From a virus: a stretch of 27,721 nucleotides of DNA. The DNA lies in the IMG/VR virus record IMGVR_UViG_3300043434_001346, positions 1 through 27,721 of that record; one strand, written 5' to 3'. Each line of letters starts with the position of its first letter. Position 1 is the stretch's first letter. The notes under the pieces were generated by a model that was not told where the DNA came from, made no database searches, and was given only the letters and a program-made list of their open reading frames with translations. Positions 1 through 26,649 of this stretch are shown here, one piece after another. Both the position numbers and the translations under genes were made by a program.

Positions 1-1575
1 TCAGATACGTCGTTGCAGACGCTCCCGCTCGGACATGCCGTAGAAGAAGTTCAGGTCATCAAAGCGGAAGCATTCGATCTCGGCGCTGTTTCTGGCCGTG
101 ACCTGCAATTCCTGGTTGGGCAGGTCGAGGCGCGGTAGCAGGTAGTAATCGAGTTCGGCGGCATTGGCGGGATCAAGCCGTACCGCTACCGTGATGTCCG
201 GGTGGTAGCGGCTGGGGTCAAAGCGGATGCGCCAGCGTTGCAGGCCATTGGGAAGTTGCTGGCAGCGCGCGAGCACCAGGCTGATGACCAACTCCTGGTT
301 CAAATGCAGCAGATCGGTTTGCGGGTCACGCCAAATCTCGCCACCCAATTCGGCAATGGTGTGCTGGGTGCGGTCGACGATTTCGGGATGCAGTTGGCGC
401 AGGCGCCGGTTGATCTCGAGGAATTCCAGGTCCCGCCCTGGACGGAAACCGACCAGTTCATACGCCTTACTCAAACTGCCGAAGCGCTGGATGTAGGTAG
501 CGGCGCTGGGCAGGGCCGGCGCCTCGTTGATGATCAGGCCCGACAGCGTCCCACGCTCCTGGTAGAGCAATCGCAGGTGTTCGAGCAGTTCTTCATCGGA
601 GAAACGACGGCTGCGCTCCGTCAGGATTTCCTGCGCGGTCATAAACGTGTCAAGCGGGACGATGCCCTCGAACGCACCTTGCTTGCGGATCCACATCTGC
701 GGCGGGTTGTCGACGTGCTTTTTCTTGAGCTTGAAGGAGTGGCGGTTGTAGACGTTGTTGCCGATGTACTTCTCGTTGGTCAGCACCTGGCGCACCGTGC
801 TGTAGGTCCAGGGGCGGTCCAGATCGGTGTGGATTGGGATGTCGTTGAGGCGCTGGGCGATTTCAGACAGTGGTAAGTCGTCTTCGACCAGCCATTGGTA
901 GATCTGGTGGACCGTGGCCACTTCCTGCGCCGGCCCCGGCACCAGGATCACCCGGTCGGTTTGCAGGCTTTTGTGCTCGCCGGGTTTCAAGGTGGCTTTG
1001 ATGGTGCCAGTTTGGTCGATCAGCACCCGGCGCAGGCCAAACCCGGCGGGACCACCCTGCCGAAACCCCAGTTCGATCAGGCGGCACTGACCGGCAAACA
1101 CCTTGGCCGAGAGTTCACGGCTGTACTCACCGGCCATGGCGCGCTTGACGCCTTTGACGATGGTTGAAACGGGGGAGCCATCGTTTTCAAACTGCTCGGC
1201 GACGTAGGCGACGCTGATGCCCTTGCGTTTGCAGATGTACTCGTAATAAGCCGATTCGTCCGCATCCTGAAACCGCCCCCACCGACTGACGTCGTAGACC
1301 AGGATCAGGTTGAAATCGGTGTTGCCGGATTCGACATCGGCGATCAGCCGTTGTAGGGAGGCGCGACCACCGATCGACAGACCACTCTTGCCATCGTCGG
1401 CATAGGTGCGGACGATTTCTATCCCTCGCTTTTGTGCGTACTCGAGAATCTTGTCGGCCTGATTGAGTGTGGAATACTGCTGGTGTTCGGTGGACATGCG
1501 CACGTACTGGGCGGCGTGGAAGGTTTGGTTTTCATTCAAGGTCATGATCTCTCGGAGCTCTTTTGTTTCGGACAT
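1..1575 (-). CDS. Serine recombinase (resolvase/invertase family), possible prophage integrase
   Basis: The protein of about 524 residues begins with a resolvase-type catalytic domain. The nucleophile is the serine in YVRMSTEHQ (about residue 28), and the arginine-containing motif VYDVSRWGRFQD follows. Next comes a 'Recombinase' DNA-binding domain (about residues 175-290, GPAGFGLRRV and YSTVRQVLTNEKYIGN). Enzymes of this family cut and rejoin two DNA sites through a phosphoserine intermediate. Only four cysteines are present and none form a CxxC pair, so the usual zinc ribbon of large serine integrases is missing. Instead, a segment with LPSAATYIQRFGSLSKA resembles homing-endonuclease-associated repeats. 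I chose the ATG at 1575; a TTG at 1593 and an ATG at 1545 (GAGAG just upstream) are alternatives. The stop codon is at the first base of the window. It lies about 100 nt downstream of the RfaH-like gene on the same strand. Its role as the integrase is inferred from position; no attachment site was seen. Confidence 0.88.
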   Translation of the reverse strand: MSETKELREIMTLNENQTFHAAQYVRMSTEHQQYSTLNQADKILEYAQKRGIEIVRTYADDGKSGLSIGGRASLQRLIADVESGNTDFNLILVYDVSRWGRFQDADESAYYEYICKRKGISVAYVAEQFENDGSPVSTIVKGVKRAMAGEYSRELSAKVFAGQCRLIELGFRQGGPAGFGLRRVLIDQTGTIKATLKPGEHKSLQTDRVILVPGPAQEVATVHQIYQWLVEDDLPLSEIAQRLNDIPIHTDLDRPWTYSTVRQVLTNEKYIGNNVYNRHSFKLKKKHVDNPPQMWIRKQGAFEGIVPLDTFMTAQEILTERSRRFSDEELLEHLRLLYQERGTLSGLIINEAPALPSAATYIQRFGSLSKAYELVGFRPGRDLEFLEINRRLRQLHPEIVDRTQHTIAELGGEIWRDPQTDLLHLNQELVISLVLARCQQLPNGLQRWRIRFDPSRYHPDITVAVRLDPANAAELDYYLLPRLDLPNQELQVTARNSAEIECFRFDDLNFFYGMSERERLQRRI

Positions 1576-1675
1576 GTTTGCTTCGAAGGCCAAGCCGTAT
1601 CAAGGTCATGTGGCGCGGATCGTCGACATAAAGTGAGGCTGACGGACGGGGTGGAGAATTACGTAGCTTCATGGC

Positions 1676-2581
1676 TCACCCCACCTTGCGCAGACTGGCT
1701 GCGTCGATCGTCATGGCCACAGGTTTGCTCAAGAGATCGAGCAGCACCATGGCGCGGCCTTCAGCGTCATTCATCTGGTAGATCGCCTCCAGACCGGCAA
1801 AGGCCCCTTCGGTGATGCGCACGCTGTCGCCATGGGCGAACAGGGTGATTGGGTCGGCTTGCTGTGTGGCCTCGCGCTCGCGCAGGGTGGCGATCAGGGC
1901 GTCATCGACCCGCGCGGGCCGGCTACCGAAGCACACCAACTCGCTCACGCCGACGGTGGAGCGGATCGGGCTCCAGCTCTGGCCATTGCCTGATGTATCG
2001 AGGCGCACGAACAGGTAGCGCGCGAACATCGGCTCCTGCACGACGGTGGATTTGCGACGAACGAGTTTTTCGGTGGCAAACAAGGGGAGATAGGATTCGA
2101 AGCCTTGGCGTGCCAGGTTGGCGAGCGCAACCGCTTCCTGCCGAGGTTTGCTGCGCACGAGGAACCAGACCATCGTGCTGGGCGAGGGGTGACTGGTGGG
2201 TTTTAGCGGCGTTACAGGAACTGAATCGGTTTCTGCCAGCATGGGCTGCGGCACCAGCTTGGGTGAAATCGAAGGCGGTGGTGACTTGGGTTTCGGAGCC
2301 GGCGCCGGAGCAGGCAATTCATCCTCTGGTGGCGGGGAACGCAACAGTTGCGCCATGGCGCGAATCAGCGGCAGCGGTCTTGCCGTGGCCAGCACCTGCT
2401 CGACCAGTGCCAGCATTTCACTGCGCTCGTACGCCTGGATGTCATCGAGCTGGTAGCCGACCTGCAGGCCGGCCTGGGTGATGGCCAGACCCTCGTTGGC
2501 ATCGCGCAGTTTGTAAAGCGCCTGCACGGGCAGGCCGAGACGCTCGGCGGCTTGTGGCGAGGTCAGCAGGCGCGGGGCCAT
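1676..2581 (-). CDS. RfaH/NusG-family transcription elongation factor with N-terminal HTH extension
   Basis: Residues from about 137 to the end (301) match RfaH closely. The NGN domain begins MVWFLVRSKPRQEA and continues through EPMFARYLFVRLD. The KOW region GDSVRITEGAFAGLEAIY is close to the E. coli RfaH segment GDKVIITEGAFEGFQAIF. This family binds RNA polymerase and suppresses pausing and termination. Before the NGN are about 136 extra residues. Residues about 6-52 look like a MerR/excisionase-type helix-turn-helix (TSPQAAERLGLPVQALYKL, then GYQLDDIQAYERS). A helical stretch and a Pro/Ala-rich linker (about 82-135) follow. I start it at ATG 2581, which has no clear ribosome binding site. 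An internal ATG at 2173 would give a normal 165-residue RfaH-sized protein, also without a clear site, so two forms are conceivable. The extension is in one open frame with the NGN. It sits behind the late-operon terminator and just before the recombinase. Family assignment is strong; the target operon is unknown. Confidence 0.87.
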   Translation of the reverse strand: MAPRLLTSPQAAERLGLPVQALYKLRDANEGLAITQAGLQVGYQLDDIQAYERSEMLALVEQVLATARPLPLIRAMAQLLRSPPPEDELPAPAPAPKPKSPPPSISPKLVPQPMLAETDSVPVTPLKPTSHPSPSTMVWFLVRSKPRQEAVALANLARQGFESYLPLFATEKLVRRKSTVVQEPMFARYLFVRLDTSGNGQSWSPIRSTVGVSELVCFGSRPARVDDALIATLREREATQQADPITLFAHGDSVRITEGAFAGLEAIYQMNDAEGRAMVLLDLLSKPVAMTIDAASLRKVG

Positions 2582-2595
2582 GGGGCGTGGGGCAA

Positions 2596-2645
2596 GGTGA
2601 ACATGCCTCCATGAAGGCGCTGTTCGCGAACAAAGCCAAGGCCAT
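2596..2645 (-). promoter_or_regulatory. Promoter-like leader element, weak fourth copy, upstream of the RfaH-like gene
   Basis: On the minus strand TTGGCT (2639-2634) is followed by exactly 17 nt and CTTCAT (2616-2611). AGCGC directly precedes the second hexamer and GGAGGCAT follows it. The three plus-strand elements at 24198, 25858 and 26215 share the same order and spacing, about 15 of 20 bases in the 3' block, and the CCTTGGCTTTG core of the second copy. The predicted -10 hexamer is a poor sigma-70 match. The distance to the ATG at 2581 is 29 nt. Seen in sequence; the promoter function is inferred. Confidence 0.4.
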
Positions 2646-2683
2646 CTGGCGGGTGTTGTGCAGATTTCTGACGCACAAACGAC

Positions 2684-2738
2684 AAAAGACCCCGCCTTCA
2701 CCAGCCACCCAAGAGGGAAGCCAATGAAGACGGGGTCT
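2684..2738 (-). terminator. Rho-independent terminator closing the lysis/tail operon
   Basis: Read on the minus strand, AGACCCCGTCTTCA (2738-2725) pairs with TGAAGGCGGGGTCT (2700-2687). All 14 positions pair in RNA, counting one U-G wobble. The loop is 24 nt and TTTT falls at 2687-2684. On the plus strand the wobble becomes a C-A mismatch, so the signal favours leftward transcription. It lies 42 nt after the holin stop and before the leader of the RfaH-like gene. Confidence 0.8.
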
Positions 2739-2780
2739 ATGGTTTACTGCTGTTGCGTTTGCTGCAGCCGCTGGCGTAGC

Positions 2781-24197: not shown

Positions 24198-24246
24198 AAA
24201 AGCGCTTGGCTTCTGGGGCGCACAGCGCGTGAATGCAGATGTCGAT
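24198..24246 (+). promoter_or_regulatory. Promoter-like repeat element, copy 1
   Basis: TTGGCT (24206-24211), a 17-nt spacer and GTGAAT (24229-24234) stand 40 nt before the ATG of the DUF6900-like gene. AGCGC lies directly before the second hexamer. The same arrangement occurs at 25858 and 26215. It lies in the divergent region between the small terminase gene and the plus-strand island. The spacing suits a sigma-70 type promoter, though the -10 match is modest. Confidence 0.6.
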
Positions 24247-24274
24247 TGACAAGCAACCCACCAAGGAGCCCCAC

Positions 24275-24565
24275 ATGGCCAAACCCAAGCAACCCACCGC
24301 ACTCTCCCCGGACGAGATCGAGCTCTTGCTCGAATCGATCGCCCTGGACCACCTGTTCATCGAAACCCTGCAAACCCGCCACCGCGACAGCCTGGACTTC
24401 CACGACGTGAGCGTCTGGGGTGTCAAAAGCGCCCTGCAAGCCGCGTTTGATGCTGGGCTGCGTGCTGCAGGTGGCGCGCCAAAGCAGACCGTGCACCGCG
24501 TGCGCAAAGTCACCGCGGCACATCAAACCAGTGGCAACGGCAGCACCGCCGCCCTGCAAGCGTGA
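24275..24565 (+). CDS. DUF6900-like small protein, first gene of the plus-strand island
   Basis: The protein of 96 residues begins MAKPKQPTALSPDEIELLLE. Its core, FIETLQTRHRDSLDFHDVSV followed by WGVKSALQAAFDAG, matches what I recall of DUF6900, a small family of accessory proteins on mobile elements and phages, of unknown function. The ATG at 24275 has AAGGAG about 7 nt upstream, which decides the start over an in-frame ATG at 24233. It is preceded by promoter-like copy 1. It ends 7 nt before the DUF3489 gene, forming an operon. The orientation is opposite to the structural genes. No catalytic motif is visible. Confidence 0.75.
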   Translation: MAKPKQPTALSPDEIELLLESIALDHLFIETLQTRHRDSLDFHDVSVWGVKSALQAAFDAGLRAAGGAPKQTVHRVRKVTAAHQTSGNGSTAALQA

Positions 24566-25857: not shown

Positions 25858-25905
25858 CAAAGCCTTGGCTTTGCATCGCAGCAGCGCGTCAATGAGGTCA
25901 TCGCC
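25858..25905 (+). promoter_or_regulatory. Promoter-like repeat element, copy 2
   Basis: TTGGCT (25865-25870), a 17-nt spacer and GTCAAT (25888-25893) lie 34 nt before the ATG at 25928. The first hexamer is inside a perfect dyad, CAAAGCC-TT-GGCTTTG. The 3' block GCGCGTCAATG and the following TCATCG are shared with copy 3. The region lies wholly between genes. It could be a promoter with an operator in the -35 region. Confidence 0.62.
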
Positions 25906-25927: not shown

Positions 25928-26191
25928 ATGACCCTCGACCTCAACACCCTCATGCGCCAGATGACTGAGCAAAAGGCCAAAGACGCCTTGCTCACCGCCC
26001 GGTCCACCCTGGAACGCAGCCTGCGCGAATTGGACCATTACATCGAGCGACTCGAATCCGCTGAGACGCCGCACGACAAATCGCAGGTCATGAACTGGGC
26101 GCTCAACGCCCTGGCCTGCAACATCACGCCCAACCTGCGCCTGGACCTGATCGCCAACGCACAGGCCGAACTGGCCAGCGTCGCGAAATGA
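25928..26191 (+). CDS. Hypothetical small helical protein
   Basis: This 87-residue protein, MTLDLNTLMRQMTEQKAKDA onward, appears entirely helical. A likely coiled coil spans about residues 14-48 (LERSLRELDHYIERLESAET). A second helix follows (MNWALNALACNITPNLRLDL). It resembles small phage accessory proteins, but I know no family function. The start is firm: AAGGAG lies 8-9 nt upstream. Promoter-like copy 2 stands directly before it, and copy 3 follows its stop within 24 nt, so it is probably a single-gene unit with its own control. Confidence 0.75.
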   Translation: MTLDLNTLMRQMTEQKAKDALLTARSTLERSLRELDHYIERLESAETPHDKSQVMNWALNALACNITPNLRLDLIANAQAELASVAK

Positions 26192-26214: not shown

Positions 26215-26262
26215 GAAAGCCTTGGCTTCTGTACCCTGGAGCGCGTCAATGGAGTCATCGCC
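26215..26262 (+). promoter_or_regulatory. Promoter-like repeat element, copy 3
   Basis: TTGGCT (26222-26227), a 17-nt spacer and GTCAAT (26245-26250) lie 33 nt before the ATG at 26284. The flanks AAAGCC and GCGCGTCAATG, then AGTCATCGCC, are nearly the same as in copy 2. The spacer itself has diverged, whereas both hexamers and their flanks are kept, which is the pattern expected from selection on a promoter or binding site. Confidence 0.62.
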
Positions 26263-26283: not shown

Positions 26284-26649
26284 ATGACCACCACTCACAT
26301 CCCTGCCACCCAGAACGAAGCCTGGGGCTTTTGGGGCACGATGAATGATCAAGCCGCAGCAGCTTGGCCGATCGCGATGACGGCGATTTCGGACGCCACC
26401 AACCAACCTCTCGACTCGGTCCGCGCCTTCCTGGACAGCCGCCATGGCCGTCACTTTGCTGACGATGTACTCAACGGCCTGCACGCCGGATTGAACCTGC
26501 ACGATGCGATCCACGCCGCCACCCAACGCTGGATGGGCTGGACCATCGGCCGCCTGACCAGCAAGCAGCACGGGATTCCCAAGGGGCTGCCCTACCTGAC
26601 GGGCTTTGTGATTCACTGCGAGATCGTCGAAGAGGCCCTGGCCGACTGA
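26284..26649 (+). CDS. Hypothetical protein of the plus-strand island
   Basis: The 121-residue protein starts MTTTHIPATQNEAWGFWGTM and contains WPIAMTAISDATNQPLDSVR and FLDSRHGRHFADDVLNGLHA. It then has AIHAATQRWMGWTIGRLTSK and ends FVIHCEIVEEALAD. I recall similar uncharacterised proteins in prophages and integrative elements, always small and with a conserved SRHGRHFADDV-type motif, but no function. The start at 26284 is chosen because an ATG at 26188 would put promoter-like copy 3 inside the gene; CGGAG lies about 9 nt upstream of 26284. Its last 37 nt overlap the end of the minus-strand membrane gene, so the two genes converge. Confidence 0.74.
   Translation: MTTTHIPATQNEAWGFWGTMNDQAAAAWPIAMTAISDATNQPLDSVRAFLDSRHGRHFADDVLNGLHAGLNLHDAIHAATQRWMGWTIGRLTSKQHGIPKGLPYLTGFVIHCEIVEEALAD

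Follow-up and report, generated by a model that had tools for sequence, protein, structure and literature searches.

The question raised by this locus is whether a block on the minus strand, ahead of a gene for an RfaH-like elongation factor, is the same element that precedes the genes of an accessory island at the other end of the sequence, and what such an element would do at both places. The window (the whole stretch of DNA that was analysed) corresponds to an IMG/VR virus record, 27,721 bp long. A tailed-phage late operon, recognised by terminase PHROG and holin matches, occupies the minus strand, and the accessory island lies on the plus strand, adjoining the terminase end of this operon. 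The features discussed below are the following:

1..1593, minus strand: large serine recombinase (integrase), just 3ʹ of the RfaH-like gene; Pfam Recombinase and Resolvase, PHROG integrase
1676..2581, minus strand: RfaH-like gene; the product has a winged helix-turn-helix of Xis/MerR type at its N-terminus, a disordered linker and an NGN-KOW domain at its C-terminus
2563..2604, minus strand: 13-codon leader ORF MFTLPHAPWPRAC, from the ATG at A2604 (predicted transcription start, deduced from the element) to 19 nt into the RfaH-like gene
2610..2639, minus strand: copy 4 of the element; 41.8 bits with a 207-site matrix, 29.2 bits with a three-copy matrix; kept in 22/22 homologues
2639-2634, minus strand: TTGGCT of copy 4, putative -35 box
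2621-2617, minus strand: AGCGC of copy 4, end of the spacer
2616-2611, minus strand: CTTCAT of copy 4, putative -10 region
2680..2743, minus strand: intrinsic-terminator-like hairpin with TTTT (RNAfold -42.2 kcal/mol), between the holin genes and copy 4
24206..24235, plus strand: island copy 1, 46.7 bits, before DUF6900-DUF3489 (Pfam) and two further genes
25865..25894, plus strand: island copy 2, 36.7 bits, before a small gene at 25928
26222..26251, plus strand: island copy 3, 38.4 bits, before a small gene at 26284

Copy 4 and the island copies

Read on the minus strand, copy 4 runs ..GATGGCC TTGGCT TTGTTCGCGAACAGCGC CTTCAT GGAGGCATG.., and all the parts listed in the first-pass annotation were found, i.e. 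TTGGCT, a 17-nt spacer, CTTCAT, AGCGC and then GGAGGCAT, as well as the distance of 29 nt between CTTCAT and the ATG at 2581. The annotation had also matched this distance to that of the island copies, which turned out to be close, not identical, as there the same T lies about 33-40 nt from the start codon. Its description of copy 4 as degenerate and weaker was wrong, because with the 207-site matrix (iterated from 153 sites, the copies at RfaH genes being left out) copy 4 outscores island copies 2 and 3. The CTTCAT(G) ending is a normal variant, present also before unrelated accessory genes at three other loci. Copy 4 is a full-strength member of the element.

The bare hexamer pattern arose by chance in 2 of 100 shuffles. 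A matrix built from the three island copies had been proposed as the means of telling copy 4 from random phage sequence, and it did pick this copy out, with 22.2 bits over 30 columns and 29.2 bits over 43 columns. Copy 4 ranked fourth in the window, behind the three island copies, and only these four sites reached its score. Among 4.9 million background positions (further phage and bacterial DNA, in which known elements had been masked), four scored at least as high as copy 4 at 30 columns and none at 43 columns, where the highest background score was 18.1. With the matrix of 153 sites from other contigs copy 4 scored 32.3 bits, against 5.7 for the next-best site in the window and a maximum of 19.6 bits in 300 Markov shuffles of the window.

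The GGAGG that follows copy 4 was ruled out as the Shine-Dalgarno site of ATG 2581, because its distance of 24 nt is too large. On the island side, the protein behind copy 3 matches phrog_8020. We also noticed that gene callers drew ORFs through the element, both in the window (24233-24275) and in the Acidithiobacillus phage AcaML1, in which the annotations of gp5 and gp30 cover it; the annotated island starts are therefore probably too far upstream.

Conservation before RfaH-fusion genes and promoter-like geometry

A profile search of viral contigs returned 22 homologues of the RfaH fusion, 48-91% identical to it. As the first-pass annotation had asked whether the block is conserved upstream of such genes, it is relevant that all 22, which are related by descent and are not independent samples, carry the element directly upstream, down to about 48% protein identity. 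The scores at these loci were 26.9-41.8 bits, and the next-best site per locus did not exceed 12.1. Over 237 divergent pairs the pairwise identity was 0.90 at TTGGCT and 0.80-0.86 at AGCGC..CAT, and fell to 0.23-0.42 in most flanking bins. Between the RfaH gene and the terminator that precedes it, no DNA other than the element was conserved; a GGGGTCTTTT motif occurs 5ʹ of the element in many of the homologues, and one group of them has TTGACTT with AGAGCGTTCAT, nearer to the classic -35 box. The terminator-like hairpin has equivalents at four other loci, and its position ahead of copy 4 indicates that the RfaH-like gene probably needs a promoter of its own. A serine recombinase followed the fusion gene at 19 of the 22 homologous loci, the remaining three being cut. 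Two of the contigs with the fusion gene have, in addition, an RfaH-like ORF of about 170 aa that stands alone, and in one relative two ParB-like genes (L124:8700-10648, translation judged by eye) come after the recombinase, a hint of a plasmid-like or partition module.

The consensus of the element is the 30-bp C-TTGRCTT-N11-AGMGCSTNMAT with rigid spacing, the column frequencies of which are biased, as most training sites were gathered by a fixed pattern; the RfaH homologues and a gapped search are exempt from this bias. Assigning the last T of the second block to -7 puts TTGRCT at -35 to -30, that is, a hexamer near TTGACA (TTGGCT or TTGACT) with a spacer of 17 nt, inside the 16-18 nt range. 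The second block does not follow the sigma-70 -10 box (TATAAT, with A at -11 and T at -7): T at -7 was invariant, but position -11 was a T in 60/60 distinct sites, and a standard promoter scan found 0 promoters; this poor match counts against the promoter reading. AGCGC, at -17 to -13, was as conserved as the two boxes, and together with the strict 17-nt spacing it exceeds the needs of an ordinary promoter, which also speaks against the promoter reading. Since the -10 block lacks T-12 and A-11, we infer an alternative sigma factor or an activator, and a dedicated factor of one of these kinds would be the simplest reading of how the element is recognised.

A start-like signature lies just past the element. 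At sigma-70 promoters the start is a purine 6-8 nt past -7, mostly preceded by a pyrimidine. Among 60 distinct island sites, column 36 (+1) was a purine in 80% and column 35 (-1) a pyrimidine in 88%. In all 23 RfaH units (the window and the 22 homologues) an ATG occupies columns 36-38, 6 nt past the element and with no consistent Shine-Dalgarno site, so that the predicted +1 is the A of this ATG and a leaderless mRNA is predicted. In ten homologues this ATG is the start of the RfaH fusion itself; in the window and the other 12 it opens an ORF of 8-16 codons, which shares ATGA or 19 nt with the RfaH start. This arrangement agrees with translational coupling on a leaderless transcript.

In the mechanism that we propose, TTGRCT would be the -35 box for RNA polymerase, the GTNMAT block (its last T being -7) would be the -10 region, and transcription would begin at the next Y-R step, 7 nt past -7. 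The starts predicted in this way are 2604(-), 24241(+), 25900(+) and 26257(+). The island units would have a short leader carrying the Shine-Dalgarno site, whereas the mRNA of the RfaH unit would start on its AUG, and the overlapping short ORF probably couples to the RfaH start. Recognition would probably be by an alternative sigma factor, or by an activator touching AGCGC.

The strong conservation of the element and its closeness to start codons would also suit a signal in the transcribed leader (5ʹ UTR), e.g. an RNA that binds a protein or acts in antitermination, in which case the true promoter would lie further 5ʹ. This explanation is, however, unlikely: fold z-scores were near 0, no stable or conserved hairpin and no Rfam match was found for the element, the DNA upstream of it is unconserved both in the RfaH units and in a 67-aa protein family described below, a terminator stands just 5ʹ of copy 4, and in the RfaH units an ATG lies 6 nt past the element, with no consistent Shine-Dalgarno site. 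An internal spacer hairpin was likewise rejected, as single sites fold but share no common internal stem; mutual information among the columns reflected mainly neighbour preferences, e.g. GA/CA/TC at columns 26-27. LexA boxes and sigma-54 sites were dropped after comparison with the consensus by eye.

Spread of the element and the RfaH-like protein

Many temperate phages that infect Beta- and Gammaproteobacteria carry the element. Exact-pattern matches in viral contigs and bacterial genomes came mostly from Betaproteobacteria among the matches listed, the other hosts among them being Xanthomonadales-type bacteria, Methylococcus and others. It was found in 27 of 300 Burkholderiales genomes, for which a reversed control pattern gave 0 matches, and frequently in a layout of several same-direction copies within a few kb and one opposite copy some 15 kb off. 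When gaps of 5-25 nt were allowed in the search, the N11 between TTGGCT and CAGCGC, which is the island spacing, occurred in 102 of 118 unique matches. The bases within this gap are free to vary. A Shine-Dalgarno site and a start codon lay 15-70 nt 3ʹ of the element in 234 of 282 instances; the element always lies about 25-45 nt ahead of a gene start or, in the RfaH units, exactly at one. The genes behind the element can be grouped into a few families, among them DUF2924, DUF6900, a family with DUF3489, one that is kleA/kleC-like and several without a name; the relative of IncP kleA/kleC (PF17383) was seen behind the element in several arrays, at one locus and five similar sites.

The element also stands ahead of DUF2924-recombinase operons in many phages, and many phage records show a two-place layout, with an island at one place and a recombinase operon at the other. 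The complete phage AcaML1 carries three copies at its island and one ahead of the recombinase operon. AcaML1 was the only informative phage record in searches by DNA similarity, and the RfaH region of the window had no match in the DNA similarity search of phage records.

In the 67-aa protein family, identity was 0.24-0.30 upstream to about -10 and then 0.90-1.00 within the element. As the upstream DNA is unrelated up to this point, the element is self-contained and begins at CTTGGCTT. Such an abrupt onset of similarity, along with the arrays of element and gene, would also be compatible with a recombination boundary (cassette site) that shuffles accessory genes, its place before genes being incidental. 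Yet the fixed relation to start codons, the Y-R step and the presence before integrase and RfaH genes fit gene expression, and a shared promoter would equally offer homology for recombination; we regard a cassette site as highly improbable. Members of the 67-aa family with an element of their own, about 6 kb from a second one, were seen in Lautropia, Acidovorax and Gulbenkiania genomes, and this family may be a marker of a further kind of mobile element that relies on the same signal.

The protein behind copy 4 scores as RfaH and not as NusG: its C-terminal part reached 161.1 bits with the NCBIfam RfaH equivalog TIGR01955 (cut-off 144.5) and 35.2 with the NusG model (cut-off 135.7). The first 55 residues resemble HTH_17, above the cut-off in one homologue (L299), the recombination directionality factor RdfS, by a weak sequence match (E 0.0098), and mycobacteriophage Xis, by a Foldseek match (E 0.069, probability 1.00). 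In the AlphaFold model a winged helix-turn-helix is joined through a disordered linker to an NGN domain, and the C-terminal domain is of low confidence. That an excisionase-like domain is fused to an elongation factor beside an integrase, in the window and at loci L289-L310, is in itself notable; the protein might double as an excisionase, or its Xis/RdfS-like winged helix might recruit it to DNA.

With its own DNA-binding domain, this protein could be thought to load at the element as RfaH does at ops and then to act on the accessory operons, all the more as AGCGCGTG is loosely like the AGCGTG part of ops. Against this, 19 of 24 element-bearing records had no NusG/RfaH match, among them the complete AcaML1, most of the others being partial records. 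A GGCGGTAGCGTG-type ops sequence had no match at any of the four copies with up to 2 mismatches, and the element would be untranscribed if the predicted start is right, whereas ops must be transcribed. An ops-like role is the least probable of the explanations that we weighed. Dependence of the element on the RfaH protein was rejected, since phages without NusG/RfaH carry it, and the RfaH-like protein would belong to the regulon without being the regulator that defines it, because most element-bearing records lack such a match.

The proposed regulon and known systems

We infer that the element drives transcription, and our main reading, to which we give a probability of about three in four, is that the RfaH-fusion-integrase unit has copy 4 as its promoter, that the same type of promoter starts each island unit, and that all belong to one phage regulon. 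The signal is shared by four copies in the window, and by island and recombinase operon in other records. The same element stands before the accessory and the RfaH-integrase genes, and these distant genes are therefore probably switched on together. The suggestion of the first-pass annotation that the elongation-factor gene and the accessory genes form one regulon is thus supported, by the three-copy matrix and by the conservation in 22/22 homologues, and their shared regulation, as predicted from sequence, is well supported. The putative regulon extends far beyond the window phage and includes the DUF2924-recombinase operons. Its arrangement, with the integrase operon and morons on two opposite strands, resembles what would be a lysogeny or establishment regulon.

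A broader proposal, for which we would give slightly less than even odds, is that the element represents a new promoter class (-35 TTGRCT, -10 region AGMGCSTNMAT, rigid 17-nt spacer). A sigma factor or activator specific to the phage or prophage would recognise it, in a large set of temperate phages from Beta- and Gammaproteobacteria, and it would co-express the integrase operon, the Xis-RfaH fusion from a leaderless mRNA, and exchangeable single-gene morons. Such a class would provide a ready-made regulon map for hundreds of unstudied prophages, in which small genes behind the element are predicted to be co-expressed with the integrase; many of these (DUF6900, DUF3489, DUF2924 and unnamed families) are without known function. 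It would also offer a specific predicted transcription start for the leaderless RfaH-fusion gene and a pointer to a recognition factor.

We found no description of the element among open-access PMC papers. In the establishment regulon of p576/pLS20, conserved upstream sequences before many small genes define the regulon (PMC8708921); these are Gram-positive conjugative plasmids, and the sequence and architecture of our element are unrelated to theirs, as far as described (PMC8708921). Promoter-like elements that recur ahead of arrays of small accessory genes are also seen in the Frpo single-strand promoters of plasmid leading regions (PMC11541004), whereas the element studied here has no conserved hairpin and a tailed-phage context. 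An NGN-KOW domain like that of RfaH is encoded behind copy 4, which recalls the RfaH/ops system, but the protein has an Xis-like winged helix in front, and the element is not ops. With sigma-70 promoters the element has in common the -35 TTGRCT and the 17-nt spacer, and a purine start 7 nt past the last -10 base is predicted for it; it differs from them in a GTNMAT block without T-12 and A-11, in the strongly conserved AGCGC at -17 to -13 and in its almost invariant spacing. In the CII-type regulon of lambda (pI, pRE, paQ), one promoter signal serves the integrase operon of a temperate phage together with further units at a distance. The consensus of our element lacks the TTGC-N6-TTGC repeat of that regulon and its copies are many more, often one per moron, but as in lambda a single signal stands before the integrase operon and before distant units.
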